A program made the translations under genes and the position numbers. 64,000 nucleotides of DNA, from NCBI GenBank assembly GCA_022495995.1, contig JAFEMH010000988.1, positions 498,807 to 562,806 on the forward strand. Direction: 5' to 3'. The notes beneath the pieces are model-generated. The model ran no database searches. It had not been told where the DNA came from and saw only the letters and a list, made by a program, of their open reading frames with translations. This stretch comes from Adenophora triphylla var. japonica (lineage: Eukaryota > Streptophyta > Magnoliopsida > Asterales > Campanulaceae). This document shows positions 18,284-60,173 of the stretch, piece after piece; within the stretch, counting starts at the first letter, position 1, and every line of letters begins with the position of its first letter.

Positions 18284-18472
18284 GTATACATAATGTATCA
18301 GTAGAATATATTTTTACTATGTCTTAGAAAAGTTATTCTTCTAGCTATGGTTAACTAATATAACAATTATCATCTAAAAAATAGACGGTTAGAAATTGAT
18401 CTTATATATTAAGTTGAACGTCTAATATTTACCATGTATAGTAACTCTTAGGTTATATATTAATAGTTACCC
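18284..18472. repeat. Left flank of the nested transposon block; copy of a repeat also at 60240-60640
   Basis: The text AAAATAGACGGTTAGAAATT ... GAACGTCTAATATTTACCATG ... GGTTATATATTAATA recurs on the right side at 60258-60292 and 60568-60632, split there by a Stowaway. The 10 bp ATAGTTACCC at 18463-18472 are the left TSD of the Mutator-like element. Confidence 0.8.
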
Positions 18473-18730
18473 GAGATAAGTACATATTTCGTCCTTGACC
18501 TATAGTCACTTTCTCGTTTTAGTCCGAAATGTATTTTTTTTTCATTTTCCCCTTAATCTTGTGTTTTTTGGTTGATGTCGTCATTCCGTCAATCCTCAGT
18601 TCAATTTCCGTTAAAAATGCCTATGTGGCATGTTGAAATCATTAAAATGCTTAGTTGGCCCATAAATTTGATAAAAATGACTGAGTTGAAAATACCAAGG
18701 GTGAAAGTGTACTGTACTAAACTATTAACC
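18473..18730 (+). repeat. MULE left terminal inverted repeat
   Basis: About 258 bp, aligning with the reverse complement of 59905-60163. Shared blocks include TATAGTCACTT, GAAATGT, TGTTTTTTG, AATGTCGTC/GATGTCGTC, ATGTGGCAT and GCTTAGTTG. Confidence 0.88.
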
Positions 18731-19634
18731 CCATAAAATAATTTGTTAATATTAATATTTAATAATAAAATTAAAAGACTATTTACATTTTTATAATTTT
18801 TTATTATTATTTTATTAATGTTATAGTAATCTTATTTGAAATAACTTATTAAAGATTACTCCATTAATTTTCTCCCTTTTTCTCCGAAGATTATTAATTG
18901 ATGTTATAATAATTTTATTTTAAATTTCTACTTTCAATTTAGGCTATATTTACACCACCATAACTTCTACCAAAAGCCACTTTGTGACCACCCTCAACCT
19001 ACCTGCCACCACCATCACTACCACCATCCGTCACCACCACCATCCATCGCCACCACCATCCACCACCACATTTCAAACCACCACCACCCAATCAACATCC
19101 ATTAAAAACACCAACAAGCAAATCCTTATAGTAATATTCTACTCCTACCACTAAATCAACACATACACAACACCAAGTTCGATTCAAACAAAAAAATCCC
19201 AGATCCGAAAAAAAAAAAACAAAGCACCGCGATCTGAACGAAAAGAAAAATTCAAATTTTTAAAATATTGAAATAAAATCTCAGATCTGGAGGGAGAAGG
19301 CGATAATGCGAGAGAAAAAGAGAGAGACAATGAATTTGCAAATGGGTAGGCTTAGGGCAGCAATTGGAGAGCAATTTGGCGATGCCGACGTTGCTTCAAT
19401 CATCTGCCGCCAAAGCGAGGGAGGGAAGGGGATCAATTTTAGAGATGAAGGTCGAGAGATGGAGAGATTGGGGCGACAGCGATTGTGGCTGGATCTCGAG
19501 AAGGACGTTGTAGCAAAAAGGAGGAGAAGGAGGCGATATGGTCGTCGGCACTGGAATGGGAAGGAGAAGCGGTCGGAGATGGGAAGGAGACCAGAGTAGG
19601 AGACTGACTGGTTTTGGAGTTGACGGCGAGAGCG
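18731..19634. other. MULE interior, left part
   Basis: This holds a (CCA)n-rich stretch (18950-19090) and a 97-residue open frame at 19306-19599 that is rich in Arg and Glu and matches nothing I recognise. It may be a captured exon or chance. The last 8 bp (19627-19634, CGAGAGCG) are the TSD of the hAT insertion. Confidence 0.5.
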
Positions 19635-19741
19635 CAGTGGCGTATCTAGGATTTCTCGTGAGGGTGTGCAAAATCTTATGCAATATAAAAAAAATTGCAG
19701 GATAATATAATATGCATCATTTTTATAAATGCAAATAAAGA

Positions 19742-20331
19742 TTACAAAGATTTTCGACGTGATGACATTTCCTGAAAGTACTTCATGACTTCATCAATGT
19801 TTACATTGTCTAGTACATCTTTTTCAACATAAGACACTAAAGAATCATTTAGCATATCATCCCCCATACGATTACGCAACTCGGACTTCACAAGTTTCAT
19901 AGCATAAAATATCCTTTCGACTGTTGCAGTTGCAACGGGTAAAATTAAAGACAATTTGATCAACAAATATACCAACGGATAAGTCTTATGCTTGTTCTTT
20001 GCAACCAACTTCTGAGCAAGACTACTAGTCCCAAGAACAAGTGAGAAGTCTTCATCATTTCTGACATCTCTAATGTAGTTCTCAAGTTGATTATCAAGCA
20101 CACCAAGATCGAAATCAACATCAAACTCATGTGGGTAAAACGTGGCCAACTTAATCAAAGCTTTTTTGTCAAATGCAACAAACGAGTTACTTGGATCAAG
20201 ACAAGCTATTAGGCTTAGCAACTCCGTATTAGTGTTATCAAAAAGATCATTCAACTCTGAAAGTTGGGAATCTATCACCACATAGAACAATTCAACACGA
20301 TAATGAATCAAGTTGCTCACTTGGACACCTC
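19742..20331 (-). pseudogene. hAT transposase, C-terminal part with dimerisation domain
   Basis: The frame contains NLIHYRVELFYVVIDSQLSE near its start and the hAT dimerisation region LVYLLIKLSLILPVATATVE, followed by RIFYAMKLVKSELRNRMGDD. That is the conserved C-terminus of TTF-type/ZMYM1-like plant hAT proteins. It is cut at 20331 by the retrotransposon TSD ACCTC (20327-20331). The frame continues across that TSD with the sequence ending at 39071. The stop is near 19742. Confidence 0.9.
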
Positions 20332-22101
20332 TGTAAGTGCTCCAATTTGAGCTTGTTAGAATTTTCGTAAGAAAATTAACGAAAGTTATGACATTTCTAA
20401 CAATTCCTAACATTCCTAACATTTCTAACCAAGCAAGGGCAAAGTGGGCATTGTTATTTAAGGATAAACCAATAAAGGAATCCTAAAAAGCAAAAGAAAT
20501 TAAAGAAAAAAAAAATAGAAACTGCTGGATCAAAAACTGGCTGTTTAATTTGATTTTTTTTGAAAATATTCCTCTTGTCCAAAGCCTGAAGCAGCATTTA
20601 ATGAACAGTGCACGCTGAAGGACATATCCGCGCGGACATGATTGCAATTTTCAAAGGGCTATAAATTGAGGCCTTCAGTCTCAGAAATAAAAAAAAAACA
20701 CAATTTGTAACTGTACCTTGGCGAAAATAGTGAGAAAACAGTGAGAATTCTCTAGAATTGTCACCTTTTTCTCAACTATTCAACCAAAATCACACTCACT
20801 CAAACACTCTCATATTCAAGTCTTAAACACTCTTACATTCAAGCCTTCAAACACAAAACACAAGGAAGATAGGTATAACCTCCCTCTTCTTACCCTAAAA
20901 TTCATCCATGCATGCATTTTCAAGCTACAAAATGTAGTTCATTCATCTTCTTGTCTTAGATCCAAGAAGATCACCATGGAAGTTCATCTCCATGAATGAT
21001 CTTCTACAAGGATCAACATTACTTTCAAAGTGTTCTTCTTTTACTTACTTGCAAACAAGTTTTCAAAACCCTAAAACTCATTTTCATACATCAAATCTCA
21101 TTTTCAAAGGATAAAACTCCCCTTCCCAAGCAAATGAAGTGCTTAGTCCTAATGTACCCCAAGGATGGTTTGATATAGTTGATTCACCACTAAAATGTCA
21201 AGTAATCACTAATCAAAACCTAGGGAAATGGGGACAAACATGGATGCAAAACCCCCTTTAAAATCATGTTTTTCTTTCTTGAGAAGTTGCTGTCCAGTAG
21301 CAATTTTCTAAGACCCCAGTCCATGGTCTAATTTTTTGGACACAGATAAACTTGGAATTTGGTGTTCACTACAAAACACTTTTTGTAGCCAACATCCATA
21401 CCTTTCCAGAAATATTTTTATTTTATTTTTTGCGTGAGTAAAACTCCATTTTCCAAATTTTCTTTTGAAGGTCAGATCACCAGTTTCTGGAAGTCCAGAT
21501 CTCATATCTGATATTTCCAGAAGGTTTTGAGTCCTCAAATATTCTTCAAAATGGAAAATTCTTTCGTAGAAATCTTATTTGAGGAGTCTGGAACAACTTT
21601 TATTCTCTGAGTTTTCTCAGATTATGAATTTTTACAGCCCTTAAATCCATTTCAAAATCAAGTGTCCACTGCCTTTTTCATTCTGGCAGAAGTGGTTTCC
21701 AACTTCCAAAAATCTTTTGAGCACCAAAACTCAACCCAAAAATCACACCAAAAATCATGGGATCTTTCCAAAGTCTAATAAAGAATTACCAATTTTTACT
21801 TTCCTCAGTTTCAACTTATTTTGGCCAAAGTAACATGCACACACACACACAATAAATGGTTTTTAGCTTGGAAGACTCGTTTTACGAGGCATTCCGGGTG
21901 CACACTAACGTCCTTCCCGGCATGTAACGTGACCTCCGAACCCAAATCTCTAATCTCGGGCATTTTTCAAAGTTTTGGCCCTTAAAACAAAAATGGTGTG
22001 GCGACTCCGGTCTTTTTTCGATTGGTTTTTCAAAGAAACGAAAGATTTTCAAAAAAAGTAAAACCTTTTCGAAAGAAAATTTTGGCGGGCACATCATCAC
22101 A
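20332..22101 (+). repeat. Element 1 5' LTR
   Basis: TGTAAGTGCTCC ... ACATCATCACA. A TATA box (TATAAA, 20660-20665) lies 23 bp downstream of the palindrome TCCGCGCGGA (20627-20636). A short (CA)n stretch near 21840 differs in length from the 3' LTR. Confidence 0.92.
20627..20665 (+). promoter_or_regulatory. LTR core promoter with GC-rich palindrome and TATA box
   Basis: TATCCGCGCGGAC is followed after 23 bp by GGCTATAAATTGAGG. The same arrangement lies in the 3' LTR (37583-37621) and, in related form, upstream of the antisense genes of this element. Confidence 0.7.
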
Positions 22102-22120
22102 GTGGCGACTCCGCTGGGGA
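22102..22120 (+). other. Element 1 primer-binding site
   Basis: GTGGCGACTCCGCTGGGGA directly follows the LTR. It resembles the site after the 5' LTR of element 2 (GGGGACTCTGCTGGGGA). Confidence 0.75.
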
Positions 22121-23576
22121 AAATAAGCTTTTTCTAAAAAAAATGATATTTGGTATATTGGTGGAAACCATTAAACTTCCCGTTATCGCCTCCTAACACG
22201 AGTCGGGGATAAATTGTGGTTTAACAATCCCACGTACCGGTATCATTGTTTTCAAAAAAACAAAGAAAAGCTTTTGAGGGTCAAGCTTCCGTCCCGGCAT
22301 TTAAAAATCATTTGTTGTGTGTGTTGATTTTTGCACATTTTGGTGTTGTTCTGGCCGCCTCGGAAAAAGTCAAAATTTTGACTGTCGGAATCATGTCCCT
22401 AACTGTCGGAATTCTTGTGCTTATGTGCTTATATGTTCATTATTTTTCAAAAAAAAAAAATTCAAAAAAAAAAAAGGATTTTTCAAAAAGAAAATTTTCA
22501 AAAAAAAAAAATCATGCATCATTCTTTTTAAGACACATAAAAAAATTTCTATTTTACTCAGAAAAAGAAGATAGACTGCTTGCACACTACGCGCACGTGA
22601 CCGTACACTGCACACTACGTCCCTAACCCGGGGAAATCCTTGTCGCGGCCCGTTTGGTCTTATTACGCCTCTCGGTGCAAGCACAGGACTACCCAAAAAT
22701 CCCATGGAGCCTCGTGTCGACCATGCACTTGTCCGTGACACACTTTTGTCCGAGACCCGGTTGGTTTTTAGTCTGGTCTGTGTCATGCCCTGTCTGTGTA
22801 TAGACCTTTCCTTTCAAGCCTTTGTCGGCATACCGACTCAATATCTTTCGGGGACCCTAATCAGTCGAAGCTCTGCCGGTTTTCCGCCGCAGACTTTGAC
22901 TAAGATATTGACCGGCGCCTTGACTTCGGCTCGACCGGCACAAATTATACACTGACTCCCAGCATTGACACTGAGTCATCAAGGATTAATGATTATTCCA
23001 TGCCTAATTACGGCTTAACTGACGACAAGTCAAGATCAATCGTGGACATTTATCAGTCCAAATCGTGCCGACTTTTTTGTCGAGCCCTCGGACATGATCT
23101 TGACTTTGACGTCAGCTTTGTCCGTAATTTGCATCGAATGCTCGTTAAGACTCGATTACCCGCCGGACTTTTAGGATCGTTTTTCTTTCGGTCGGTGGGA
23201 CCCGCTTGCCCTATGTGACCCTCGCTCGGGGCCGTCCACCCCGGGAGGTCGAAATACGTGTGGAATACGAGGGGCTTATAGATGTAGTGACGGGGCCCAC
23301 CGATCCAGATCCGCAGTAGTTTGCGAAAAAAGAGCAATCTTTTCCAACCGATTAGGTTAATAAAACATGTTTTAAGTAAACGTGAACAAATAATCGCATG
23401 TTGCATGAGCCCAAAGCCCAAACACCTACCCTCCTTCATTCCCGCACATCGAACCCTCGTGCCTTTTCCCCGCAGGCTCCTCACAAAGGTTGGTTCCGAC
23501 ACCGGTCACCGTTTGATTAGTTGGGAAGAGTCAAGCGCATCATCGCCTTCGCCGTTTGTTCCGACTGGGTTTCGTA
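22121..23576 (+). other. Element 1 leader
   Basis: About 1.45 kb between PBS and gag without a supported gene. It includes runs of A around 22450-22510 and text such as GGGTCAAG/CGGCATACCG typical of Tat-type leaders. A matching region in opposite orientation lies in element 2 (47870-48700). Confidence 0.5.
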
Positions 23577-26500
23577 ATGTCCGCATCGGCCGGTAATGAT
23601 GGGGATAACGTCACTCCGCCTCCAGGACCCCTCGAGACAAAACAAAGCGGTGGAATCGGTTAGCGTAACGTATGAGATTACGACAGAAGCACAACCGAAT
23701 AGCCTTATGGAGGCTATTAAGAGCCACGGTTTGGCCGCCGGCCTCAATCCCGATGGCACCTTCACCGTGGAAGAAGACGAGGATGCCAATCCCACTCTCG
23801 GCCGCCCTGATTACTCCAGAATGCCACCACCCACCTCCTATGGTACCACTACCAGAACCCATGCTCCTCGGTCTTCGGGTCAGCCAGCCCCCCAGCTTCA
23901 GACCACTGGATCCATGCAGCCCGACGGCACAAATTAGTTCACAGTTCCTCAGTGGGGACAAAGCCAATACAGAATGTCTTCTCATGGTTGGGGCTATTTC
24001 GGAATGCCACAGCTAATGGGGATCCCGCCTCAGTTCGGAACCGATCAATCCGGGCCTTCGCAGCAACAGTTCAAAGGGCCACAACAACAGTTCGGCATGC
24101 CTCAACAGCCGTCAGGAGCCCCTCCTCAGAATGATGCCAGCTCAGCTGCTCCTCCCACAACTTTCACCAATCCATTCCTCGCTCAGGGTTCGATGGGTTA
24201 CCAAACCTCCATCCCAGTTTCATCGGAATCACCAGGACCGCAGTACCCCCCGGGTTATACACCATCGCCTCAGTCAGCCATGCAATTCAACAGTCAGGGA
24301 CAGCAGCCCGCACCTAAGCCTACTTATGGGCCCCACTTTGGAAATCCAAGCTATCCGGCTACAGCGGGACTGCCTCAACCCACTTTGCCGGTTGAAAACC
24401 CACAGCAAGCCGCAAGGTTCTATCCTTTTGCTCAGGGTCCTACTCATGCTCCCCAGGGTAACTTAGCCCAAGGACAGGTTTTCACCTACGTCCCCGGGCC
24501 GGCCATTCCATCCACCAGTCTGCCTCCAGTGGTAAGCCCCCTCTCCGGTTCAAATGCCACGGCTCCGCCACAAGACCCTCATCTGGCCTGGTTCATGGAA
24601 CAACACAAGGAAATGAAAGCGCAGATCGCTGAATTGACTGCCAAGAAGTCTGCTTTCCGGCCTACAGACCCGGACTCCATTGTTCCCCTGCCCCACAAAT
24701 TCGTGATGCCTAATCTGGATCTCTTTGATGGGACTGCATTCCCGAAAACTCATCTGGACACGTATACCTTGGCGATGAAGGCTAAAGGATGCACCAATCA
24801 GCAGTTGGCTGACTATTTCAGTCTGTCTTTGAAGTCCAGTGCCTTAAAATGGTTCTTTCGTTTGAAACCTGAAGCCAGGACTACGTGGGACCAGATTACC
24901 AATGCCTTCACAGAAAAGTACAAGGCCAACTTGGAATGGGAAACAAATAGAGTTGACCTACAAACAACAGTGCAGCGTCCCGACGAGAATGTTGGAGACT
25001 TCTACAAGCGGTGGAATCTGAAACTCAGTGAAATGGCCATCCCTCCTTCTGAAGAGGAACAACTGGATATCTTCCAGTCATGCCTGAAACCACACCTGAG
25101 AGCCTCCCTCAGTCACTTCCCGTACTCAGACTTACGAGCCATGGTTAACTCCGCAGCTAAATTTGAAAAGGCTTACAATCAGCAACCGGCCGCTGCACCT
25201 GCCTACAGATATCGGGCTCCTCCTGCAAACACTGCCCCTGCTCCTGCTAAAGGCAAAGAGATGATTAACTACGCGGGACAGGAATGTAATAACACAACTC
25301 CTTTCACTCCCAGAAAACCAGTCGAGCCCAGGCCACGGGTCATGAACCTCGAAAACTTTGGAATGCCTCTGAATGACATCTTTAGGGGACTGGTGAAAGA
25401 AGGCTTGCTGCGGCCTTTGGAGAATTTCCAACCCAGAAATCCGAACGCTCCCGTGGATACCTCAAAGTATTGTGCTTTTCATCAAGCCCACGGACATCTG
25501 ACTGACAACTGCTTCACTTTGAAAAAGGCAATCCAGGGATTGATAGAACAAGGAAAGTTGGAAGGCCCCGAAGGGCCTAATACAGTCAAAAATCCTCTGC
25601 CAAGGAACCATAATCAGGTGAATATGATTGAGTGCAGAGAACCTTCGCATGCCCAGGAAGATGCTGATGAAGGTCCCCAAATACCCATGGCCAACCTTGT
25701 CGAGGATCCTGAATTCGGATTCCCCCTCAGCCTCGAGGATATTGAACGGATCAACCCATCTTTGTCTCATGTCAGAGATTTCCTGCAAGAATATGAAACC
25801 CGCTACTTCTCAGAGGAAGGGATAGCTGATGCTGAAGAACTGGGGCTGTTCCAGTCAAAACATGAGAAAACCATTTACACAAGATGGTTAGAACAATCGA
25901 GAAGAATCAAACAAGAAAGCTTCCGGCGAGCGCCTGTACTGGGGCTTATCAGCAAAGAGGCCGAAGAGCATCTGGAGCTAGTACACTTCTGCAAGTTGGC
26001 TCTGGGAGAAACCAAATACGATCCCGAAGACAGTGAAACTGAAGAATCAGAGGAGGAAGATTCCTTCTATATCCTGTCGGGAGTCAAATACGTGCCACCC
26101 CCTCTCACTCTTCCCCCGCAGTTTCTGGGTGGAGAAGCCGAGTCGCAACTACCACTTCCGGGAATGGGAGCATATGATAATTTCTGCGGCTGCACGCACC
26201 CATATTCCCCTAACGGGTTTGATCGGCGTTCCCTCTCAGCCGAAATCCCGGTAGTATGGGAAGATGATTCCGATGACAGCGACGACGATGATGATGACGA
26301 GAGCGAAGAGTCAACTGAGGCCCCAGATCCGGAAATAATCTGGAACAATCATGCCGAAAATGAGCCCATGGGAGCCAGGCACAATGGTTGGTTGTCAGCA
26401 AGCAACGATGAAGAACCGCCGGAAAACACAAGTCAGATGCCAGTAGGGACAGGCCCCCAAGAGCTGCACCTCGTAAGATGCACTTGTGGTCAGTGTCCGG

Positions 26501-26991
26501 ATACTTCAGAGGATGAGGGACAGCAAAGCCCGCGCCCAGATCCGTACATATCCGAAATCCTAGAACACAATGTTCCTTATAAGAACCTGACTGGTGAATG
26601 GAAAGGGTTTATTGAAGCACTGGTCGAGAATGGAGGGTTTCAGCCACCAGAAGATGAAGAATTCGTAAACGTCATCGGATCTTTTTCTTCTTTCCCGAGA
26701 ACGGATGGCATAACAACCGTAAGGGTCACAACCGGGCCGCTTGAACGCAGCGAGTGCCTGCAATCACTGAAAAGGGTTATTGATCTGAACGTCTCCCCAG
26801 TGGCCTTCATACCTATGGATCCACATGACGCCTTCCTAATCGCTCCAGTGCCCGACAATGGACCCGGGTGCTCCTTATTTGGACACGGATCTATCGAGCC
26901 GCTACATCAAACTCCCGGGGGGAACGTTGCCTATCCTTCACTTGTGGCTGCCCTACTTGCAAGGGTGAAAGAAAAGAAGAATGTACGATGA
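23577..26991 (+). pseudogene. Element 1 gag
   Basis: The main frame 23974-26991 encodes about 1005 residues. It has a Gln/Pro-rich N-terminal part, a retrotransposon gag domain (LKSSALKWFFRLKPEARTTW and DENVGDFYKRWNLKLSEMAI, about residues 285-355), a Cys/His motif CAFHQAHGHLTDNC (about residues 500-513), and an acidic C-terminus (DDSDDSDDDDDDESEES). The same frame extends upstream through 23596 but is broken by TAG at 23935-23937. A likely true start, MSASAGNDGDN at 23577, is in yet another frame. The N-terminal segment LMEAIKSHGL resembles the gag of element 2. Gag packages the RNA. This copy has at least one stop and probably one frameshift. Confidence 0.85.
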
Positions 26992-27067
26992 AATGGAGGC
27001 CGATAGCCATAACTCGGCCATCCAGGGATGAGATCGAAAAGCCGCCGAGCCCCGACAATAGCGACTC

Positions 27068-27478
27068 TTGTTGTATGATAACTATGAGCAAAGGGCGGGC
27101 TATGGGAGCGAATCAGAGGACGCCCTAGCTTTGTGGGCCATCCAGGGGGCAACAACACAACCCCAGACTCAAAAGCCTGTGACTTGGCAAGCAGTTATAA
27201 GGGCCGCCCAGGAAGAAGCCAGTACAGCTCAGCCCCTCACCGTTGCTAGACTCCTTCAGAACCAGTGGCTGATAGCCAAAAAGGCTCCCCCGTTGACCTT
27301 AGCAGCTTTGAAGAAATCTAGTCAAGAAGCAACTGATGAGGAAGTTAACCTGTTGACCCGATCCGGGCAAATCTTCCAAGGGAATCCCAAGGCAGATAAG
27401 AAGGCCACAAACCAACCACCTGAGGAGAACCGCCGCCCCTATGCTAAAACAAGCTCGACCCCGTGCTCACCCAGTTGA
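27068..27478 (+). pseudogene. Element 1 gag-protease spacer, shifted frame
   Basis: The frame AGYGSESEDALALWAIQG ... EEVNLLTRSGQIFQGN belongs between gag and protease of Tat-type polyproteins. It is in a different frame from the flanking gag (ending 26991) and protease (from 27463), which share one frame. Two compensating indels near 26990 and 27460 would explain this. Confidence 0.65.
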
Positions 27479-28689
27479 AGCAAACACAGGCCAACATCTC
27501 TCTGTGGTCCCTACTCACTTCATCCTATCCCCACAAGCTAAAGCTGGAAGAAAGCCTGGCCCGCACCTTGGTCCCTATTGATGCCACTCCCAACGACATG
27601 GTACAGCTGATTGGAAACATCCGCTACGGAAACATAATCACTTTCACAGATCTCGACCTCCCTCAATTTGGGGCTGATCATAACGAGCCCCTCTTCATCA
27701 CAGTCCAATTGGATGAACGACGCCTCCCTCGGGTCCTGGTTGATAATGGGTCCGGAATGAATATCCTTCCGGCAAAGATCATGAGCCTGCTTGACATCAA
27801 GTCCACGGACTTAAAGCCTTCCTCCCTCACAGTCAAAGCTTACGACTCGACATCTCGAGCAGTCCTTGGAGTTGCTACCTTAGACCTCTGGTTTGGACAG
27901 AAATTGATACCTGTGGAATTCCAGGTTATTTACATCCCAATCACTTTTAATGCCTTATTGGGAAGACCTTGGCTATATCAGGTCAAGGGGGTTGCCTCAA
28001 GCCTCCACCAGTGTGTGAAATTCATATCGAATGGGGACCTGACGACCATTTACAGGGATTTAGTCACCTTGGAGGGCACGGATACAGGGGGAATACCTAT
28101 CCTGGAAATCAAACATGACGAGGAAGGTCTCATGTTAACGGGTTTCACGGTCGAGCCTCCCAAAGCCCAAGTGTGCAACATAGATTTGACAATCACCCGG
28201 GATAAAATCCCTCCGGTCTTGAAAATGATGAGAAAGATGAGCTATCTACCTGGCCTCGGTCTAGGGAAGCACCAACAAGGAACTCACAAACTCATCAAGG
28301 TGAAAGGACAGAACACTCGCCACGGCCTGGGATATGAGGCCTCCTCAGTGGACACTGCAAAAGGAAAAAGATTTGAAGCTATCACAGGAAGGGTCCCGGT
28401 CGACGACCCTAAGTCTCTCTCTTTCAGTCCTAATTTAGCTGACTACTTTGTAAAGGGTCCCACACAACCAGGTAACATCACAAAGCCCACTCCTACAGAA
28501 GGGTGGCTGAAGCTACAGGATAGCCTTAACAAGTTCAGGGGAGCCAAAGCTAACCCGGTCCGTAGAATGTTTCTGGACCTACCCAAGATACCCGGGGCTA
28601 CCACTACCATGAGAAGTGAGTACAGTTCGAGAAGCTCACAACCACAATTCCTACTGCCCAGGAAGGTCCGAAACCTGAGTTTGAATTGA
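27463..28689 (+). CDS. Element 1 aspartic protease with C-terminal G-patch
   Basis: This encodes about 408 residues. The retropepsin-like site is RVLVDNGSGMNILPAKI (Asp in D-N-G-S, about residues 90-106), with a second motif FNALLGRPWLYQVKG (about 167-181). A G-patch follows: KMMRKMSYLPGLGLGKHQQG and RHGLGYEAS (about residues 255-295). G-patch modules are RNA-binding/helicase-activating and are often found next to the protease in this Ty3 group. The frame ends at 28689, and remnants (ELTVPKAKATEVFSDDWDGP) continue in another frame. The protein would process Gag-Pol. Confidence 0.85.
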   Translation: MLTQLKQTQANISLWSLLTSSYPHKLKLEESLARTLVPIDATPNDMVQLIGNIRYGNIITFTDLDLPQFGADHNEPLFITVQLDERRLPRVLVDNGSGMNILPAKIMSLLDIKSTDLKPSSLTVKAYDSTSRAVLGVATLDLWFGQKLIPVEFQVIYIPITFNALLGRPWLYQVKGVASSLHQCVKFISNGDLTTIYRDLVTLEGTDTGGIPILEIKHDEEGLMLTGFTVEPPKAQVCNIDLTITRDKIPPVLKMMRKMSYLPGLGLGKHQQGTHKLIKVKGQNTRHGLGYEASSVDTAKGKRFEAITGRVPVDDPKSLSFSPNLADYFVKGPTQPGNITKPTPTEGWLKLQDSLNKFRGAKANPVRRMFLDLPKIPGATTTMRSEYSSRSSQPQFLLPRKVRNLSLN

Positions 28690-29387
28690 CCGTGCCGAAA
28701 GCCAAAGCCACAGAAGTCTTTTCAGATGATTGGGATGGTCCGATTATGCAACACCTATTCGGGGAAGAGATTCAGGTACCAGACCTGATTGATTTCAGCT
28801 CAGTCAAAGAAATGGTAGCAATGATCGAGGGAGGAGAACAGAAACGAGACAGCCCCTGAGTCATGAGATCACTGACAGCAATGCCGCTAAAGAATTGGGA
28901 AACTCTCTCAGGCCCGTCCGCGACCAAAGAAGAAATGATCACCAAGCCTGGATTGGCTCCCGTCCCTTTGTGTAAACCTAGGAAGAGTCCTCCGAGTCTC
29001 TCATTGTTAAGGTCGAGTCTCTAGGTTCGTCCGATGGCCTTACGCCTGAAGACTGCGAGTCTGTAGCAAACGCTGTACTCCCTTTCGTTCCTAATGAAAT
29101 GACGAACCTTTCTGAGTATCCCTTGATTGCCACTTTAACTAATGATGAATTAATTAATAAAAAAAAACATTTGATAATAATTCATTAGATAAAAAAGCAG
29201 ACACATTGAATAACAAAAAAAAATCAAACAAAAAAAAATCTTTAAGCAGGCTGTCCGGAAAGAGGAAAATCGAGCCCAAGCTGCCGAAGAGATTTTGACG
29301 AGTGTGAATTTGGGAACCGCGGAAGAGCCTAAAGAGACGCAGATTGGTGATTTCTTCAAAGGAACTGGAAAGGATGCTCTACAAAAT
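28690..29387 (+). pseudogene. Element 1 residual pre-RT region
   Basis: Fragments of the linker before RT are visible in mixed frames, ending with LTSVNLGTAEEPKETQIGDF and FKGTGKDAL. In relatives this is the text just upstream of the RT domain. An AT/A-rich stretch (29140-29240) interrupts it. The RT itself is absent. At 29381-29403 the sequence (TACAAAATCC repeated) passes directly into integrase. Confidence 0.7.
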
Positions 29388-35416: not shown

Positions 35417-35548
35417 TGCTCAAAAATCAAAGAAAAATTGAAGAATTTTGGAGCTTTTTGGCCAACAATGGCGGTTTGGGCGAATTTTTCTCCCTCTCTC
35501 TCGTAATTTTCGAAACAGACTGTGAAGAAGAAGAAGAGAGGGCGGCGC

Positions 35549-49378: not shown

Positions 49379-49397
49379 CCCAGCAGAGTCCCCAAAC

Positions 49398-51118
49398 TGT
49401 GAATGTGTGCCCAAATTCTGTTTTTGTGTTTTTAGTTTGGATTCACTTGAGTTTGAAAACATCCGGTTTAATTTGAAAAACGGAGTCGCCACGCCATTTT
49501 GATTTCCTCAAAACTTAAAAAAAAAGGATTTAGGGTTCGGAGGTTAAGTTACCCCTTGGGAAGAACGGATCGTCGTTCACCCAAGGTGCCTTGCCATAGC
49601 AAGTCTCCCAAGATTCCATTTTTCGTGCTTGCTTGTGTGCTTTCTTGTGTGCATGTGTTGAAAAGAGGGGGGGAATGTTCCAAGTTGTCTTCCGGACGTA
49701 TAAACCATTTAGTTGGTTATCGCTCGAGATTCCTTGGATTTTTATGTGTTCGGGACTTTGATCCCGTCCTCATCTTGGACTTGTGATCATCGCTATTTGA
49801 CCTTGGATCTTGCGTGATCGAGAGAAGGACTCTCTTTTTATGGTCCAAAATGAGGTTCTTTAGAAAAGGAGTGTCCTTAGCCCATCAATCCTACATCTTG
49901 AGACGATTGAGCTTGTCTAGAGACTACTATGCTCGTCTCAAGTGATAATCAGAGATATATGGTTCAAGGTTTATCCCTTTCTAAAGATATTGTGGAACCT
50001 TTAATGGAAGAAACGATGTAAAGATAGGATCTTTACACCGGTCCGCTCCAAAGGATACCAATGGGGACTTGGGGAAATGCATGTTAAGAATAAAAATGAC
50101 ATTTTTAATAAAAAATATGACATTTTGGGGTGCAAGGGATGCTTTTTGTTTTTAAAAAAATGATCTTTGATGCAAAGGATGCACCTTTATGTGGAAAAAT
50201 AGTGTTTTATATGCAAAGGATACATAAAGACTTCATTTTGAAAGCAAAGGAAGCTATTTCAAGGTAAAGTAATGATTTTTAATGCAAAGGATGCATTTTT
50301 ATGCATTGAAAATGGGTTTTAGGTACAAAGTATGCACCTTTAATGCAAAGAAATGATTTTTATATGCAAATGATGCATTTTTATGAGCAAAGGATGCTAT
50401 TCTAATGCAAAGATCGCATTTTTATGAGCAAAGGATGCTATTCTAATGCAAAGATCACATTTTTATGAGCAAAGGATGCTATATTAATGCAAAGGATGCA
50501 AAGGGAGGGGGAATATGATCTACATGTTCAAAGATATGATCTTTAGTAACAATATATCAAATACCAAGTAATATATAGCAATATGTAAATGCAAGGAGCA
50601 AGTATATCACATAAATTAAGTATAATGCAAGATAAGGGGGTGAGAGATTACCAATGGTGGTGACCTCTTTCTCTTTGGAAATCGCCTAAGGAAGGGACCA
50701 ACTCTTGAGGCTTCAAGGAGGAGGGAGGTGGCTCTTGGCACCTTCAGCTTGCTGAATTTTCGTAGGGATGTTTTTAGGAGAGTTTTTATGCTGAAAATTG
50801 TATATGGAAATGGGTAGAGGAGGCCTCTATTTATAGGCAGTCTGGATAGAGCGAATGAAGCCTTGCGGCCAGGAGTTCCCTCCGAATGCAGCCGTGCGGC
50901 ATTATCCCTTGTGACTCAGCATGTTTCTAGAATCATGCAAGGTGGCCTTTCTAGAAGGATTTCCATATTAAGGAAAACGTGTTTTTTTAATTTGAAGCAA
51001 TCCCTTCATCCCTCGGAAGGTTCGGAACAGTTCCAGAATTGCTCCTGAACTTTAGGAAAGTCCGAGAAATTGCCGGGAAACTTAACCGGAAGGCATGAGC
51101 CAGATTTTGGTACTTACA
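49398..51118 (-). repeat. Element 2 5' LTR (right copy)
   Basis: Closely similar to 40128-41852 by eye (about 2% different, plus a shorter G run at about 49669). One of the two GC palindromes is mutated here (GCCTTGCGGC). Confidence 0.85.
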
Positions 51119-52039
51119 GCCACCACAATCAAATAAATCAAAAATTACGTTTTTTGAATAAACAGAATTAGAAGATCATTTATGGTTTTGAATAAACTAT
51201 ATCATTACTGATTGTCCTTACAGAATGCTTAATGAATGTATCCTTGCACGGAAGTAAGGAAATCTTTGGTTTTCAGTACCATTTTCATCTTTGACATTTT
51301 TACAGTCACCTTTGCTACTACCACCACAACAGCACCCAACCCATTCAATAAACCTAATTCAATCACTCAACATATCATAAACCAAAACCCGAAAAAAAAA
51401 TTACTAAATCATAAAATCACTAAAGAAAAATTGATATAGTTGATGCTATAAATTCGAGATTATCCCTACATTTGTCCAAAAACCAGTGATTTTTTTTCTT
51501 TTTTCATGTACCCAGCATTTTATGGTTTTGAATAATTTTTGTGTAAATTTACACAAAAATTACGTTTTTGAAAAGAAACAAAATCATCAGTCGCCGGTTG
51601 GAGAAGAATCCAAATCATCAATTCAATATTTTTAAAACCCTAAAATTGAATTTTAAAAAATTACCTTTTTGAGAGTTGGTTAGCGAAGTCTGCGAAGCCA
51701 TCCCAAATCACCGGTAGCCGGTTGGAATCGTCAATCGAGTCAAGGGCTGCAGCAGTCTGGTCGGAATCGAGGTGTGAGTGTCGCCGACGGAATCGAGGGG
51801 CCGTTTTTGGTTGTTTGCGTAACTGAGGGCAGTGAATGAAATTGAATGAAAGAAAAAAGAAATCTCTTTAAGAAGAAGAAGAAGAGTTTTTATTTTCTGA
51901 TGTTACACTTTTCATCCCTTATCTTTCAAATAATACACTTTGCACCCCTAAGTTTTTTTTTTAAACTACTCGGTAATTTTTTTGCAAAAAGTCAGGGTGT
52001 GCAACTGCCCACTCTTGCGATGAACTAGATATGCCCCTG
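51119..52039 (-). other. hAT element, 5' region of the transposase gene
   Basis: Noncoding. It should contain the promoter, 5' leader and first intron of the minus-strand transposase gene. It ends with the hAT terminus (CTAGATATGCCCCTG) at 52039. A GAAGAAGAAG stretch lies near 51875. Confidence 0.55.
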
Positions 52040-52073
52040 CGAGAGCGTAGAGGGACAGGTAGGTGGAGTGTGA

Positions 52074-52760
52074 CACTACCAGAAAAAGGTGTTTTAGCGA
52101 CGGAAATTTCCATCGCTAAAATTAAATTTTCGTCGCTAAATATAAACACCGGCGGAAAAATTCCGTCGGTGGTCCGCCGCTACCAGCCTGTCGCAGTGCT
52201 CAGACGGGTCAATTTTCGCCGCTATTTTTTGATTTTACCGACGGAATTTAATTCCGCCGGTGATTTAATGATTCCAGCGACGGAAATTTCCGCCGTTAAA
52301 TCAATTTAATTTAATTAAATTTTCATTTCAGCGGCGGAAATTTCCGTCGCTGTAATAAAAATTAATTAAATTAAATTAATTTCAGCGGCGGAAATTTCCG
52401 TCGCTGTAATAAAAATTAAATTAAAATTAATTAATTTCAGCGGCGGAAATTACCGTCGCTGAAATTATTTTAATTTAATTTAATTTTGAATTTCAGCGGC
52501 GGAAAGACGGAAATTTCCGCCGCTGAAATTCAAAATTAAATTAAAATAAAATAATTTCAGCGACAGTAATTTCCGCCGCTGAAATTAATTTATTTTAATT
52601 TAATTTTTATTACAGCGACGGAAATTTCTGCCTCTATAATCAAAAATTAAATTAAAATTAATTAATATAGTGGCGGAAATTGCCGTCGCTGTAATTAAAA
52701 TTAATTGAAATAAATTAATATCAGCGACGGAATATTCCGTCTCTGATTCTGAAATAAATT
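52074..52760. repeat. CACTA left subterminal repeats
   Basis: About a dozen copies of (A/T)TTCAGCGGCGGAAATT and inverse forms, separated by ATTAATTTAATT-like spacers. Confidence 0.9.
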
Positions 52761-52901
52761 AAAAAAAAATAATTTAAAATATCAATAAACCAAAATTTTT
52801 TGTACCTGATATAACAATTCAATTTATAAAACTAAAACTATAAAAACTAAAAATCAAATATCAGCGTACCAAATAAAGACTAAATATCACCGTACCAAAT
52901 C

Positions 52902-52978
52902 GGGAGGGGGAGAGGGGGGAGGAGGAGAGAGGGGGAGGGGGAGAGGGGGGAGGGGGTATGGAGGGGGGAGGGGCTCCC
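52902..52978 (+). other. G-rich tract inside the CACTA element
   Basis: A near-pure purine run on the plus strand with many GGGG/GGGGG groups between GGGAGGGGGAGAGGGGGG and GGAGGGGCTCCCG. It could form G-quadruplexes. Confidence 0.85.
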
Positions 52979-53071
52979 GCGGGTACAAAATATCTCAAAT
53001 GTTTATAAACAAGTATAAAATAGTACAAACAAGTCTAAACGAGCCATCAACAGCGCCAAATATCTCAAATA

Positions 53072-54570
53072 TCAACTCGGGGGAGGCCGGAAATTACCCT
53101 GGGGGTCCTGGTCGAAACGAGCCATCAACAGCGCCAATTGTCTTTCAGTCTCTGCATGACGCCGATCAGTCTCCTCCTGCATCTGCGTCTGAACCGCCAA
53201 AGCCTCCGCAAGCTTTGCCCGCTCACGTCTCTCCTCATCCAACGCAGCCTGCAGACTGTCGACCCTCGGATCATGAAACGTGGTCGGGGCAACATTTCGC
53301 CGACGGCCGGTCGACGTCGACGGGCATTGCCGCCCGTAATCCCCCATCCCTAACACTCGGGCTCCTCTCTTTGGATGTCCCTCAGAGGTGACCGAGTGCC
53401 AAACATCAGGCACGAAGGGGATGGGCTCGCCGGGAGGCGTTCCTTCGGGAGCAACGGCGGCTTGATATGCAGTCTGTCAAAATAAAACAAACAATTATAA
53501 TCATATACACAATGTAAGGTACATAAATAAATTTACATATTCAAAATCAAGTCATTTAATGATAGTTTACTTACAAAGGCATTAGCAGAGCGATCGTCAA
53601 CCCATTGCGGAGGTTGATCGGGCGCTGTAGGATTCCGAAGATGGGTGCTAGCGTAAACATCCACAAAACTGATATTCTGGCCATACTCCCTTTCCTATAA
53701 ATAAAATAAGCGAGATTATTACTTTGAAATTTTATAAATGCAACATTTAAACTGATTTAAAAGCATGCATACACTACATTTACACTAAAACCATGGATTT
53801 CATAGCATCAACATGGCTCCCAGCTAACATACGTACATAAACCTATTTAAAAGCATCCATACACTACTACATTTAAACTAACATACATACCATGCGGTCG
53901 TGATGCTCGGCGATCGGGATCGTCCCCATGGTATGCATCGCCGCCGACCCCGAGGAGCCTGCTCTATTGGCCTTGGCCTGATTGGATATAGCCTTCGCCG
54001 CATCCGACCCCCAATATTCGCAAAATTGACGAAACACCTCCTCGGTCATCCAAGTAGGAGTCGAGGGCATTTCATTGTCCCGCCGCGGAGCCGATTAGTA
54101 TAATAATTTCTCTTCGTGGTACCTATAAAAAATATGAATATCTCGTAAACATATAATGATGACATTATAAAATTAAAAGAGTATAATCATTGTTAATTAA
54201 ACTAATTAAGGATAGATAAATATGTTACCAATAAAATCCCTAAATAGCTTGTGAGCCTGTATATCGAAAACATATCTAGCCGTCGCCTCGTCGATTTCCG
54301 GCGCCCAATAATATTTATCCTACAACATATAATGATAACATTACAAAACTAAAAGAGTATAATCATTATTAATTATAACATTTTAATAACAAACTAACAT
54401 TTAAGTTTTAAATAAAAACCATTAACACATTACCTTAAACTCCTCCCACGCATCCTCCTTCTGCCTCGGTGGCAATGATTTCCAGTTGGGCCAATACTCG
54501 GTCATTTTCCGAGACCGCCAATATTGCCTGATCTTAGTCCCTGTGGTAGGGTATCCCCCTACAAACCTGC
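53072..54570 (-). pseudogene. CACTA TNP1/Transposase_24-like gene, 3' exons
   Basis: Minus-strand pieces typical of plant Ptta/En/Spm proteins: GGYPTTGTKIRQYWRSRKMT with EYWPNWKSLPPRQKEDAWEE (exon about 54570-54430), RYVFDIQAHKLFRDFIG (about 54310-54240), SDAAKAISNQAKANRAGSSG with MHTMGTIPIAEHHDRM (about 54070-53890), and a coiled-coil tail LDEERRERAKLAEALAVQTQ (53413-53072). The exon at 54570 follows a good acceptor (TTGGCAG). Complete exon joining was not verified. In En/Spm, TNPA-type proteins bind subterminal repeats and assist excision. Confidence 0.65.
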
Positions 54571-54618
54571 CAAGTATATTTATACAATAACATTTTAACT
54601 TAAATAATGAATTATATA

Positions 54619-56436
54619 TGAAATTGTCACGGCTTGAATCACAAGTGATATCCAAGGTGATAACAGCACCAACGATAGCACTTGGGATGGCACACACACA
54701 CACTTCGAAAATAAAACAATTTTGTAAAAGAGTTTGCAGCGGAATAAAAACACCAAAATTGTTTTTTCTCAAGTTATATAAATATAACTTGAGAGTGCCT
54801 CTTAGGCAAGACTTTATAATCACTATGAATGAAGTTACAAAGCCGAAAGTTCCCTATAGCTATATCTATTTTAAGCTCTATGGAACAAGAGATAAAGAAC
54901 GGAATCCTATCCTAGCCTTCACACACCTTGATACCAAAGTAATCAAGTGCGAAATTACAAGGGAGAAAGGATTAAAAAGAACCAAACAAAGAACTCTATC
55001 TCTAAGCTTTTCGAAGGTGTGAATGTGAAATAATTGGCCTGTCTTCAAATAAACCTTCCAAGCTTATTTATAGTCTTCAAATACTTGAAGGCTACTCCAA
55101 TAACAGCCTTGGGGCTGGTCTTGCACGTGGAGGAAGTGTAGGGAGAGTGGGTTTATTTGTTTCCACAATTCTAGCTCCCACTTCCTATTTTGTAGCAACC
55201 GAGTTGTTGAATCCTCAAGCCATGCTTCCACGCCTTATACTACCTTGCTTTATCATCCTTGTACCTCTTCTATAACTCAGCAACAACCTTTGACAAAGTC
55301 TCCATAAGATTTGTTGTTGTTTGCCAAAGTTACGAATTAATACATAAAATGTATTAATTCTTTTCTTCCAATTTCCACACGTGTCTAGCTCCTTCTTTGA
55401 TGCTATTGCACCCTGAAATATAACCATAAACCATAGACTATACAGACCATATTAGCACGTTAGTCCATTAAATAACAAACAAGAAATATACAACTATATA
55501 ATTTTCAGTCCAGGATATCATCTACTATTGAAATTGTCACGGCTTGAATCACAAGTGATATCCAAGGTGATAACAGCACCAACGATAGCACTTGGGATGG
55601 CACACACACACACTTCGAAAATAAAACAATTTTGTAAAAGAGTTTGCAGCGGAATAAAAACACCAAAATTGTTTTTCTCAAGTTATATAAATATAACTTG
55701 AGAGTGCCTCTTAGGCAAGACTTTATAATCACTATGAATGAAGTTACAAAGCCGAAAGTTCCCATAGCTATATCTATTTTAAGCTCTATGGAACAAGAGA
55801 TAAAGAACAGAATCCTATCCTAGCCTTCACACACCTTGATACCAAAGTAATCAAGTGCGAAATTACAAGGGAGAAAGGATTAAAAAGAACCAAACAAAGA
55901 ACTCTATCTCTAAGCTTTTCGAAGGTGTGAATGTGAAATAATTGGCATGTCTTCAAATAAACCTTCCAAGCTTATTTATAGTCTTCAAATACTTGAAGGC
56001 TACTCCAATAACAGCCTTGGGGATGGTCTTGCACGTGGAGGAAGTGTAGGGAGAGTGGGTTAATTTGTTTCCACAATTCTAGCTCCCACTTCCTATTTTG
56101 TAGCAACCGAGTTGTTGAATCCTCAAGCCATGCTTCCACGCCTTGTACTCCCTTGCTTTATCATCCTTGTACCTCTTCTATAACTCAGCAACAACCTTTG
56201 ATAAAGTCTCCATAAGATTTGTTGTTGTTTGCCAAAGTTACGAATTAATACATAAAATGTATTAATTCTTTTCTTCCAATTTCCACACGTGTCTAGCTCC
56301 TTCTTTGATGCTATTGCACCCTGAAATATAACCATAAACCATAGACTATACAGACCATATTAGCACGTTAGTCCATTAAATAACAAACAAGAAATATACA
56401 ACTATATAATTTTCAGTCCAGGATATCATCTGCGAT
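54619..56436. repeat. ~910-bp tandem duplication inside a CACTA intron
   Basis: Copy 1 is 54619-55528 and copy 2 is 55529-56436, both starting TGAAATTGTCACGGCTTGAA and ending near CAGTCCAGGATATCATCT. They differ at few positions. The unit has no recognised gene. A pair of LTRs without interior (TG ... CA ends are present) or a plain tandem duplication are both possible. Confidence 0.9.
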
Positions 56437-56533
56437 ATCACTTGGGAAATCATCTACGATATCACCTGCAAATTACACTAACAATATATAAAACAAAAAG
56501 GAACCAACTTATATCAAATTAATGAAGCGTTAC

Positions 56534-56737
56534 TTACTGGTCATAATGTGACGATATCCGGACAAATATCCTCCCCTCAGAATCGACAGTAGTCTGAGTA
56601 TCGGCCCCAGAGGTGGAGCTAGTACTACTGCGTGAAGGGTCGACATCATCACTACCGGATCGGGACGGTTGCGTCCCAGTAATAGATGTGTAGATGGGCT
56701 TAGTCTTCTTACCCTTTCCCTTTCTACTAGAACTCAT
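56534..56737 (-). pseudogene. CACTA TNP1-like gene, first exon
   Basis: MSSSRKGKGKKTKPIYTSIT and a Ser/Thr-rich stretch lead to RIFVRISSHYD at a donor (CCA|GTAAGTAA). The next exon would be at 54570, so the ~1.9-kb intron contains the 910-bp tandem duplication. Confidence 0.55.
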
Positions 56738-57045
56738 ATCTGTATTACAGTAAAAATATTAAAATATACAACTTTAACAATAGGAAACAATATATTCACA
56801 ATACATCTAAAACTTTAAAGTTCTAATAATCTAAAGCATTCACAATTCATATAAAACTTTAAACTATTAATAATATAAAGCATTCACAATACATATAAAA
56901 CTTTGAAGTTCTAATAATCTAAAGCATTCACAATACATATAAAACTTTAAACTATTAATAATCTAAAGCATTCACAATACATATAAAACTTTAAAGTTCT
57001 AATAATCTAAAGCATTCACAATACATATAAAACTTTAAACTATTA
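56738..57045. repeat. Short AT-rich tandem repeat
   Basis: The unit AATCTAAAGCATTCACAATA followed by CATATAAAACTTTAAA(C/G) recurs about five times (56830-57045). Confidence 0.8.
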
Positions 57046-57607
57046 TTAATCTTCGTCCCATCATCATCACTGGACTCTGAATTACTACAAAACTCGAGTT
57101 CTTCATCTTCGTCTTCGGACTCTGATGAATCAAACTCTGGTTCCTCTTCCTCTTCCTCTTCCTCTGATTCATCAATATCAATGTGCGCGAGATGACCTGA
57201 ACGAGGCGGAGGAGTTGGCAAATTCACTGGTAAGATATTCCTCAGGTTCATCAACATTTTGAGGAATATGAGTGACATCATCTAATGGATGATTAGCTGA
57301 TGAAACGTTAGGTGACACTGGCATTTCATCCTCTTGATAGGGTGTTTCTAATGACGACTCTGTAGTTGTCGACGAGGGTAGGTTGTCAATCATGCTCCTA
57401 GCCTTGGTCATCCAGACAGCCCACCATCCGTCGGGTCGCGGACGAGGGTAGGGAGTCATGTATACCTGTTGTGCTTGAGATGCTAAGATGAAGACGTCGT
57501 CGCCATTATGTCTGGACGAGTCCTTTACATCGATGAGGTCAAATATGGCGTGCTTCTTAACACCTCACACAGCATCTCGCCAATCACAATTGAAGACGTC
57601 GTCACCA
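57046..57607 (-). pseudogene. CACTA TNP2 transposase, C-terminal remnant (DUF4216)
   Basis: On the minus strand YNGDDVFNCDWRDAV, an in-frame stop, then KKHAIFDLIDVKDSSRHNGD and DVFILASQAQQVYMTPYPRP follow the DUF4216 pattern (V-L-F-K-C-D-W ... D-P-F-I-L-A-S-Q-A). The tail is disordered and acidic (DESEEEEEEEEPEFDSSESE). The catalytic TNP2 core, expected at higher coordinates, is absent. The homology stops within a few bases of the heptamer array at 57608. Confidence 0.75.
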
Positions 57608-58968
57608 TTATAGGGTATAGTGTATAGGGTATAGGGTATAGTGTATGGGGTATAGGGTATAGGGTATAGGGTATGGGGTATAGGGTATAGTGTATAGGGT
57701 ATAGGGTATGGTGTATGGTGTATGGTGTATAGGGTATAGGGTATAGAGTATAGGGTATAGGGTATAGGGTATAGGGTATGGGGTATAGTGTATAGGGTAT
57801 AGTGTATAGGGTATAGGGTATAGTGTATAGGGTATAGGGTATAGTGTATGGGGTATAGGGTATAGAGTATAGGGTATAGTGTATAGTGTATAGGGTATAG
57901 TGTATAGGGTATAGGGTATAGTGTATGGGGTATAGGGTATAGGGTATAGGGTATGGGGTATAGGGTATAGTGTATAGGGTATAGGGTATGGTGTATGGTG
58001 TATGGTGTATAGGGTATAGGGTATAGAGTATAGGGTATAGGGTATAGGGTATGGGGTATAGTGTATAGGGTATAGTGTATAGTGTATAGGGTATAGTGTA
58101 TAGGGTATAGGGTATAGTGTATGGGGTATAGGGTATAGGGTATATGGTATAGTGTATAGTGTATAGTGTATAGTGTATAGTGTATAGTGTATAGGGTATA
58201 GGGTATAGTGTATGGGGTATAGGGTATAGGGTATAGGGTATAGGGTATGGGGTATAGGGTATAGTGTATAGGGTATAGGGTATGGTGTATGGTGTATAGG
58301 GTATAGGGTATAGAGTATAGGGTATGGTGTATGGTGTATGGTGTATAGAGTATAGGGTATAGGGTATAGTGTATGGGGTATATGGTATAGGGTATAGGGT
58401 ATGGGGTATAAGGTATAGTGTATAAGGTATAGGGTATGGTGTAAGGTGTATGGTGTATAGGGTATAGGGTATAGGGTATAGTGTATAGGGTATAGGGTAT
58501 AGGATATAGGGTATAATGTATGGTGTATAGTGTATGGTGTAAGGTGTATGGTGTATAGGGTATAGTGTATAGTGTATGGTGTATAGTGTATAGTGTATAG
58601 TGTATAGGGTATGGTGTATAGTGTATAGTGTATAGGGTATGGTGTATAATGTATGGTGTATAGGGTATATGGTATAGTGTATAGGGTATAGGGTATAGGG
58701 TATAGTGTATAGGGTATAGGGTATAGGGTATAGGGTATAGGGTATAGGGTATAGTGTATAGTGTATAGGGTATAGGGTATAGGGTATAGGGTATAGGGTA
58801 TAGTGTATAGGGTATAGGGTATAGAGTATAGGGTATAGGGTATATGGTATAGGGTATAGGGTATAGTGTATATGGTATATGGTATATGGTATAGGATATA
58901 GGGTATAGGGTATAATGTATGGTGTATAGTGTATAGTGTATATATAGGGTATAAGGTTTAGGGTTTAG
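57608..58968. repeat. Heptamer minisatellite (TATAGGG)n with variants
   Basis: About 194 heptamers over 1361 bp: TATAGGG is the commonest, with TATAGTG, TATGGGG, TATGGTG and TATAGAG as variants. The right end reads GGTTTAGGGTTTAGAA, two copies of the plant telomere unit TTTAGGG. A higher-order period is visible (the block TATGGTGTATGGTG at 57707, 57987 and 58281). Confidence 0.95.
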
Positions 58969-59204
58969 AATTTATTTATTTTTTCAAAAATAATATTTAT
59001 TGACTCATATTTATTTTTTTTTAGAGTAATTTAAAATAACTTTCATATTTTATATAAATAAAAATGATGATATTTATTAAATTAAAATTAATAAATATTT
59101 ATGATTTATTTATTTTTTCAAAAATAATTTTAAATATTTTAATGTTTTTTAGTTTGTTATTTTGTTAATTAGTTCTAAAATAAACAAAAATTACATTTTA
59201 TTAT
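58969..59204. other. AT-rich CACTA interior
   Basis: No gene; TTTATTTATTTTTTCAAAAATAA-type text recurs. Confidence 0.5.
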
Positions 59205-59739
59205 CAGCAACGGAATATTTCCGTCGCTGATAAATAAAAAAATATTAAATTATCAGCGGCGGAAATATTCCGTCGGTGTTTAATTAAAAAAAAAACATTT
59301 AATTTCACCGTCGGAATATTTCCGACGCTGATAAATTAAAAAAAATTAATTATTCAGCGGCGGAAATATTCCGTCGGTGTAATATTTCAAAAAAAAAATA
59401 AAAAATAATTTAATTTCACCGTCGAAATATTTTCGACGCTGATAAATAAAAAAATAAAAAAATGATATATTTTCACCGGCGGAATAATTCCGTCGCTGAT
59501 AAAGATTTAGCGGCGGAATATTCCGTCGGTAAATCAACCGCGAAAATAGTGGCGGTAATTAAACGAATATTCGAGGAATATTCGTTTTAGCGGCGGAATT
59601 TAGCGGCGGAATTAAATTCCGTCGCTAAATTTGACGCCAAAATAATTCCGACGCTAAAGCTTATATTCCGCCGCTATTTAGCGACGGAATGAGTCCGTCG
59701 CTGATTATTCCGTCGCTAAAACACCTGTTTCTGGTAGTG
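59205..59739. repeat. CACTA right subterminal repeats
   Basis: Motifs GCGGCGGAA(A)TATTCCGTCG in both orientations up to the TIR. Confidence 0.9.
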
Positions 59740-59904
59740 TGAGATGCTGGGTGGAAGAGAAAGGGGGAGATGAGAAAGCCCTTGTTTTTTTTCTCCAGAT
59801 ATAGGTCAAGTTAGAGGAGGGGGAAAAGAGGGTTAAAATAGGGGTCTCATTTGCAATATTGTTCCCCTTTTTTGTTTTTATTTTTTTTGTTATTTTTGTT
59901 TTTT
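59740..59904. other. MULE interior, right part
   Basis: This is noncoding, purine-rich sequence (GAGAAAGGGGGAGATGAGAAA) between the CACTA TSD and the right MULE TIR. Confidence 0.5.
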
Positions 59905-60163
59905 AGGGTTATTAGTTTAGTAAATAACATTTTCAACCCTTGTACTTCCATGTCAACATAATTTATTGTTGTTCAAAGTCAACTAAGCAAAATGGTGATG
60001 TAATTATGCCACATGGACATTTTAATAGAAAAATTGGCGGATGACTGACAGAAGGACGACATTAAACAAAAAACATGAGGTTAAGGAGAGAAACGAAAAA
60101 AAAACATTTCAGAGTAAAACGAATAAGTGACTATATGATGGGGACTAAATAGGTAGTTGTCTC
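59905..60163 (-). repeat. MULE right terminal inverted repeat
   Basis: This pairs with 18473-18730. It ends GTAGTTGTCTC, followed by the TSD ATAGTTACCC (60164-60173). Confidence 0.88.
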
Positions 60164-60173
60164 ATAGTTACCC

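Follow-up and report, generated by a model that had tools for sequence, protein, structure and literature searches.

Nested organisation is very common in repeat-rich plant genomes, and DNA transposons are among the elements invaded (PMC10741241). On wheat chromosome 3B, 30,199 nested insertions have been reconstructed, reaching up to eight layers and including 320 clusters of more than 100 kb (PMC4290129), and 191 of 530 (36%) maize candidate coding Mutator-like elements (MULEs) carry nested insertions (PMC3903597). Here we describe such a structure in Adenophora triphylla var. japonica, in a 64-kb stretch of contig JAFEMH010000988.1 (positions 498,807 to 562,806, forward strand) that is referred to throughout as the window and within which positions are numbered and 10-mer and 8-mer occurrences were counted. 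The block spans 41,711 bp (18463..60173) and is a small transposon into which two further DNA transposons have inserted; one of these has in turn received two large long terminal repeat (LTR) retrotransposons, termed A and B. Its best explanation overall, which we hold with high confidence, is a series of at least five independent transpositions layered in this way. The nesting is genuine and can be read with unusual clarity, but as a plant genome structure it is of an ordinary kind.

The outermost layer is delimited by a 10-bp target-site duplication (TSD), ATAGTTACCC, which occurs at just two sites in the window (18463-18472 and 60164-60173) and abuts both ends of the element exactly; the range cited for MULEs is about 8-11 bp (PMC3903597). 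Immediately inside these copies are long terminal inverted repeats (TIRs) of about 269 bp, the left one at 18473-18741 on the plus strand and the right one, in inverted orientation, at 59896-60163, which align over 271 columns with 72% identity (E = 4e-31). Their local alignment score of 165 lies far above the values obtained from 1000 dinucleotide-shuffled pairs (mean 20.6, maximum 33), so that the alignment proposed as a check in the original prediction is clearly better than random. The remainder of the element, read on the plus strand, survives in three pieces. The left part of the interior (18742-19634) ends in eight bases, 19627-19634, that form one target copy of the hAT transposon; the middle piece (52040-52073) consists of the second hAT copy (52040-52047) and 26 bp of MULE sequence, the last three bases of which (52071-52073) are the target copy TGA of the CACTA transposon; and the right piece (59740-60163) comprises the other TGA copy (59740-59742), further interior and the right TIR. 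These features are those of a putative non-autonomous MULE-like element of about 1.6 kb, a name that follows from TSD and TIR length.

The state of the target before this insertion is preserved close by. A repeat copy at 60568-60643 (plus strand) carries the MULE target with no MULE in it and matches the joined flanks (18403-18472 plus 60174-60179) at 94.7% over 76 bases (E = 2.4e-29), with just 6 of the 76 bases lying beyond the target. This copy starts about 400 bp to the right of the MULE, and when two inserts resembling miniature inverted-repeat transposable elements (MITEs) are excluded, its alignment grows to about 206 columns. A second, more diverged paralogue at 61117-61164 (plus strand) aligns across the junction of the flanks for 48 columns at 83% (E = 1.2e-7), with about 30 bases of this alignment lying past the target. 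The MULE target is one unit of a degenerate repeat, the right-flank copies of which show the uninserted state. The two MITE-like inserts, which lie in the adjacent copy of the repeat, occupy 60293-60567 and 60646-60897; one has CTCCCTTCGTCCC ends with TA on both sides, which we take to be Stowaway-like, and the other is palindromic. A 207-bp palindrome farther to the right (62885-63091), 82% identical to its own reverse complement, is possibly another MITE.

The hAT transposon (19635-52039, minus strand) lies within the MULE interior between 8-bp TSD copies, CGAGAGCG, at 19627-19634 and 52040-52047; the same 8-mer is found once more, at 26298 inside element A. Its ends, CAGTGGCGTATCTAG and CAGGGGCATATCTAG, are of the CAGNGGC type, with 13 of 15 terminal bases matching, and its own sequence amounts to about 2.67 kb, split by elements A and B. 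The transposase, encoded on the minus strand, retains a C-terminal part with the dimerisation domain (19742-20331; PF05699, E = 2.7e-7), of which 20338-19751 aligns with residues 632-826 of the relative P0002 at 71%. The N-terminal and central parts were located by tblastn of P0002 at 39071-40127, a segment that includes the A target copy at 39071-39075, and the 5′ region and right terminus, with the terminal repeat and TSD, are at 51119-52039, both again on the minus strand. The same tblastn search returned no counterpart for residues 200-474 of P0002, about 275 residues. Homologues of the transposase numbered 1393 at E ≤ 1e-3 among 7984 scored candidates, and the closest among the matches listed is P0002, from Erythranthe (Lamiales), with 71% identity over 66% of the query. 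Like hAT elements with TTF-type zinc finger or ZMYM1-like transposases, whose best relatives here come from Erythranthe, this transposon has an 8-bp TSD and CAGNGGC-type ends; it differs from them in the missing stretch of about 275 residues and in the LTR retrotransposon lodged within its C-terminal coding region.

The second DNA transposon within the MULE is a CACTA element of 7666 bp (52074-59739), internally deleted or rearranged. Its 31-bp ends, of the form CACTACCAGAAA, match at 30 of 31 bases and are adjoined on both sides by the 3-bp TSD TGA. Subterminal repeats are also present, with 13 motifs of the GCGACGGA type (GCGRCGGA-type) in the first kilobase and 12 in the last, as opposed to none in the 5666-bp middle and two in positions 1-52073 of the window. 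The coding remnant is reduced to a relic with DUF4216 at 57181-57564 on the minus strand (PF13952, E = 2.1e-7), a domain linked to CACTA transposases, and this relic is the only candidate trace of a TNP2-type enzyme. Two repetitive segments were also observed within this element. One (54619-56431) is a tandem duplication of 905 bp whose copies are 99% identical, reflecting either recent duplication or an assembly effect, and the other (57609-58968) contains about 195 copies of the telomere-like 7-bp unit TATAGGG, with the variants TATAGTG and TATGGTG, ending near TTTAGGG copies; TATAGGG is found 15 times in succession in one Arabidopsis telomere array (PMC11406999).

Element A (20332-39070, plus strand) is an 18.7-kb retrotransposon of Ogre type that sits within the hAT transposase coding sequence. 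Its LTRs, bounded by TG...CA (borders 20332 and 39070), are flanked by the TSD ACCTC at 20327-20331 and 39071-39075. Once A and one TSD copy are taken out, the transposase of the hAT reads in a single continuous frame across the site, and the junction is bridged by all 120 listed homologues (the best 120 of 1393), 32 of which cross it free of gaps in the 22 residues inspected. The 5′ LTR (20332-22101) and the 3′ LTR (37287-39070), both on the plus strand, differ by 37 substitutions over 1770 sites (K80 0.0212).

The interior of A contains, on the plus strand, a gag open reading frame (ORF) of 1005 amino acids (23974-26991; PF03732, E = 8.7e-9; relative P0001, E = 1e-174), an ORF with a G-patch domain (27463-28689; PF01585, E = 1.9e-7) and an ORF with a weak integrase-core remnant (29351-30130; PF00665, E = 8.9e-4, its 19.9 bits falling short of the curated cut-off, 32.6). 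These are followed by antisense ORFs on the minus strand (30566-34604) that carry DUF7745 (PF24924, E = 1.2e-9) and a plant mobile domain (PF10536, E = 4.3e-19) and, ahead of the 3′ LTR, by tandem arrays with units of 73, 30 and 46 bp (35680-37052). The primer-binding site matches tRNA-Arg(ACG) at 18 of 18 positions, the sole such match in the window; the anticodon was confirmed by ARAGORN. Additional weak domain matches among the ORFs of A and B (Rft-1, DFF40 and YobI-ATPase, E 0.002-0.009) are left uninterpreted and carry no assignment to individual ORFs.

Several of these features are shared with the Ogre clade of Tat Ty3/gypsy elements, namely the tRNA-Arg primer site, which Ogre elements use (PMC9289625), the very large size, the plant mobile domain and the tandem repeats before the 3′ LTR. 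The largest of the described elements, which reach about 24 kb and often include tandem repeats, are non-chromoviruses, and plant mobile domain ORFs occur in 57% of Ogre elements (PMC6317226), so that this domain is common in the clade and not defining for it; together with G-patch it is among the most frequent extra domains of plant Gypsy elements (PMC9289625). A departs from the Ogre clade in that neither reverse transcriptase nor RNase H was matched at E ≤ 0.01 in any of its 64 listed ORFs of at least 80 amino acids, the ORFs of A and B having been profiled in two batches of 51 and then the other 28. The roughly 660 bp that separate the G-patch ORF from the integrase ORF are judged too small for both reverse transcriptase and RNase H. 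With no reverse transcriptase match, the clade cannot be fixed by phylogeny, and the arrangement of A also resembles that of Retand, a related lineage that characteristically carries tandem repeats and ORFs in antisense orientation after pol and ahead of the 3′ LTR and that includes some non-autonomous elements (PMC11963269); the Retand-typical PF04195 was not matched in the ORFs of A. Element A combines a domain and a primer site of Ogre type with the arrangement of ORFs and repeats reported for Retand. The possibility that its antisense plant mobile domain ORFs are a separate inserted transposon was rejected, given their frequency among Ogre elements and a self-comparison that found no flanking inverted repeat pair, terminal repeats shorter than its reporting limit being able to escape it.

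Element B (40128-51118, minus strand) lies in the same hAT and is related to Ogre. Its LTRs (40128-41852 and 49398-51118) are both complete, with TG...CA ends, and differ by 32 substitutions over 1720 compared sites (K80 0.0189); its primer-binding site matches tRNA-Arg at 24 of 26 positions. Collinear blocks in inverted orientation, 69-89% identical, connect it with A in the leader, the pre-gag region, the post-integrase region and the region before the 3′ LTR. No retroelement domain was matched in B, its 15 listed ORFs of at least 80 amino acids all lacking reverse transcriptase and RNase H at E ≤ 0.01. On this comparison, B is a deleted relative of A, belonging to one lineage with it. A 46-bp tandem array of about 32 copies was also noted within B (42133-43636); arrays of this kind are said to be able to seed satellites.

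Conceivably, A represents a replicating Ogre lineage that has dispensed with reverse transcriptase, keeping gag, G-patch and antisense plant mobile domain ORFs and using the enzymes of another element; B would then be a partner reduced still further. A gag frame that is long and open, together with an LTR divergence of 2.1%, fits a recent insertion. We regard this as a speculative and rather doubtful proposal, as it is drawn from one copy of A, in which deletion before integration is not separable from deletion after it.

The sequence of events that accounts for the block begins with insertion of the MULE-like element of about 1.6 kb into one unit of the degenerate repeat, generating the 10-bp duplication; TSD, TIRs and empty-site paralogues all show this. 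The hAT and CACTA elements inserted into the MULE 26 bp apart, as their TSDs and termini show. Element A integrated thereafter into the hAT transposase coding sequence (TSD, frame), and B, as its LTRs show, into the part of the hAT that lies upstream of the matched coding region, with its orientation opposite to that of A. Under two assumed substitution rates, 7e-9 and 1.3e-8 per site per year, the LTRs give A an inferred age of about 1.5 or 0.8 million years and B one of about 1.35 or 0.7 million years, and these integration times, 0.8-1.5 and 0.7-1.4 million years ago, are not separable by LTR divergence. An ordering of A and B by LTR divergence was accordingly dropped, the difference not being significant (Fisher p = 0.72). 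Nesting alone likewise sets no order for hAT against CACTA or for A against B. The order is only partial: the MULE precedes hAT and CACTA, and the hAT precedes A and B.

These results bear on most of what the original prediction had proposed. It had described a MULE with a 10-bp TSD holding a hAT with an 8-bp TSD and a CACTA with TGA, and two Ogre/Tat-like elements within the hAT, the one flanked by ACCTC inside the transposase frame, with matching TSDs for four of the five elements. Borders, TSDs, termini and frame all agree with this description, B being the exception among the TSDs, and the derivation of about 41.7 kb from a MULE of about 1.6 kb corresponds to the block length given above and 1609 bp of the MULE's own sequence. 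The identity of the outer element holds as far as a transposon with a 10-bp TSD and long TIRs, the MULE name being drawn from those two features; the readable order of insertion holds between layers and fails within them. That removal of each layer restores the previous one is borne out independently for the MULE and A, and holds for hAT and CACTA by TSD and termini; for B a TSD is lacking. Support beyond TSD and termini is accordingly confined to the empty-site paralogues of the MULE and the frame across A.

The duplications differ in how readily they could arise by chance. In 200,000 draws of two random window positions for each length, exact matches were found 8 times for 10 bp, 18 times for 8 bp, 256 times for 5 bp and 3901 times for 3 bp. 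As 3-bp matches are frequent by chance, the TGA duplication of the CACTA element carries weight only together with its termini.

Four observations weigh against the layered reading of the block. The likeness of the hAT ends is weak by itself, 14 of 5000 random 40-mers having scored equally high (the highest random score, 64, probably reflects overlap with the query itself); the hAT call nonetheless stands, since TSD and transposase agree. The A junction falls in a variable stretch of the protein, and 88 of the 120 listed homologues are gapped near it. The third and fourth observations concern B and the outer element, and each opens a different explanation of part of the block.

B has no TSD in the 4-6 bp range given for LTR retrotransposons (PMC6317226): its flanks are GTGCC and GCCAC and share just GCC, a 3-bp match expected by chance in 2% of cases. 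This, together with heavy internal deletion relative to A, is what might be seen if B were a rearranged remnant, for example a product of inter-element recombination, instead of a simple separate integration. Its two complete LTRs, different at 32 of 1720 compared sites, and the location of both flanks within one hAT with matching TSD make that unlikely, and the missing duplication is probably the result of a small later change. For the outer element, no transposase domain, MuDR-type included, was found among seven ORF pieces of at least 60 amino acids scanned in its left part, the right part having none that long, and the TIR identity of 72% falls under the 75% cut-off by which coding MULEs of maize and rice were mined (PMC3903597), taken here as an operational threshold. 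It could on these grounds be some other TIR transposon, or a chance AT-rich inverted pair beside a chance 10-mer. We consider this quite improbable: the TIR score relative to the shuffled pairs, the duplication placed exactly at both ends and the uninterrupted target at two paralogous sites together establish that the outer element is a transposon, its superfamily name alone being putative. An assembly error within the block, for instance a misjoin or collapsed LTRs of B, could be read from the absent TSD of B and from the CACTA duplication and long 7-bp array, both difficult to assemble, but is very improbable, because the exact hAT TSD encloses B, the exact MULE TSD encloses the whole block and the joining of different loci is not expected to yield matching outer TSDs.

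The layered reading leaves a set of elements that all now look inert, as suggested by the lack of a transposase match in the MULE, the deleted and interrupted hAT frame, the CACTA relic and the lack of a reverse transcriptase match in A and B.

Elsewhere in the window, a TIR-NBS-LRR gene occupies 252-10090 on the minus strand, with a TIR domain (of the protein kind) at 9479-10090, NB-ARC at 2573-3757 and LRR at 896-1864. Its matches, at 33-49%, are mostly from asterids and rosids (best 120 of 6773). Between the exons for TIR and NB-ARC lies a Copia element; its outer borders are at 4263 and 9411, its LTRs are 99% identical and its TSD is TATTC.

In common with the nested clusters of wheat 3B and the maize and rice MULEs, the layering here is read from borders and TSDs, and an LTR element breaks a transposase frame. 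The block differs from them in bringing MULE-like, hAT, CACTA and Ty3/gypsy elements together with four legible TSDs, in having paralogous empty sites within the window and in having a non-coding MULE-like element as its outermost layer. The proposal that such stratigraphy is uncommon finds no support in the maize and wheat counts given at the outset. It is plausible that automated annotation would miss layers of the block; in the wheat study, CLARI-TE recovered nested features with a sensitivity of 41% and TEannot with one of 17%, and the figure for CACTAs was 13% (PMC4290129). The block is a good example of a known phenomenon and leaves knowledge of plant transposons unchanged. As a clear case of insertions laid down in layers, with its own empty-site control in the window, it can serve for testing the annotation of nested elements.

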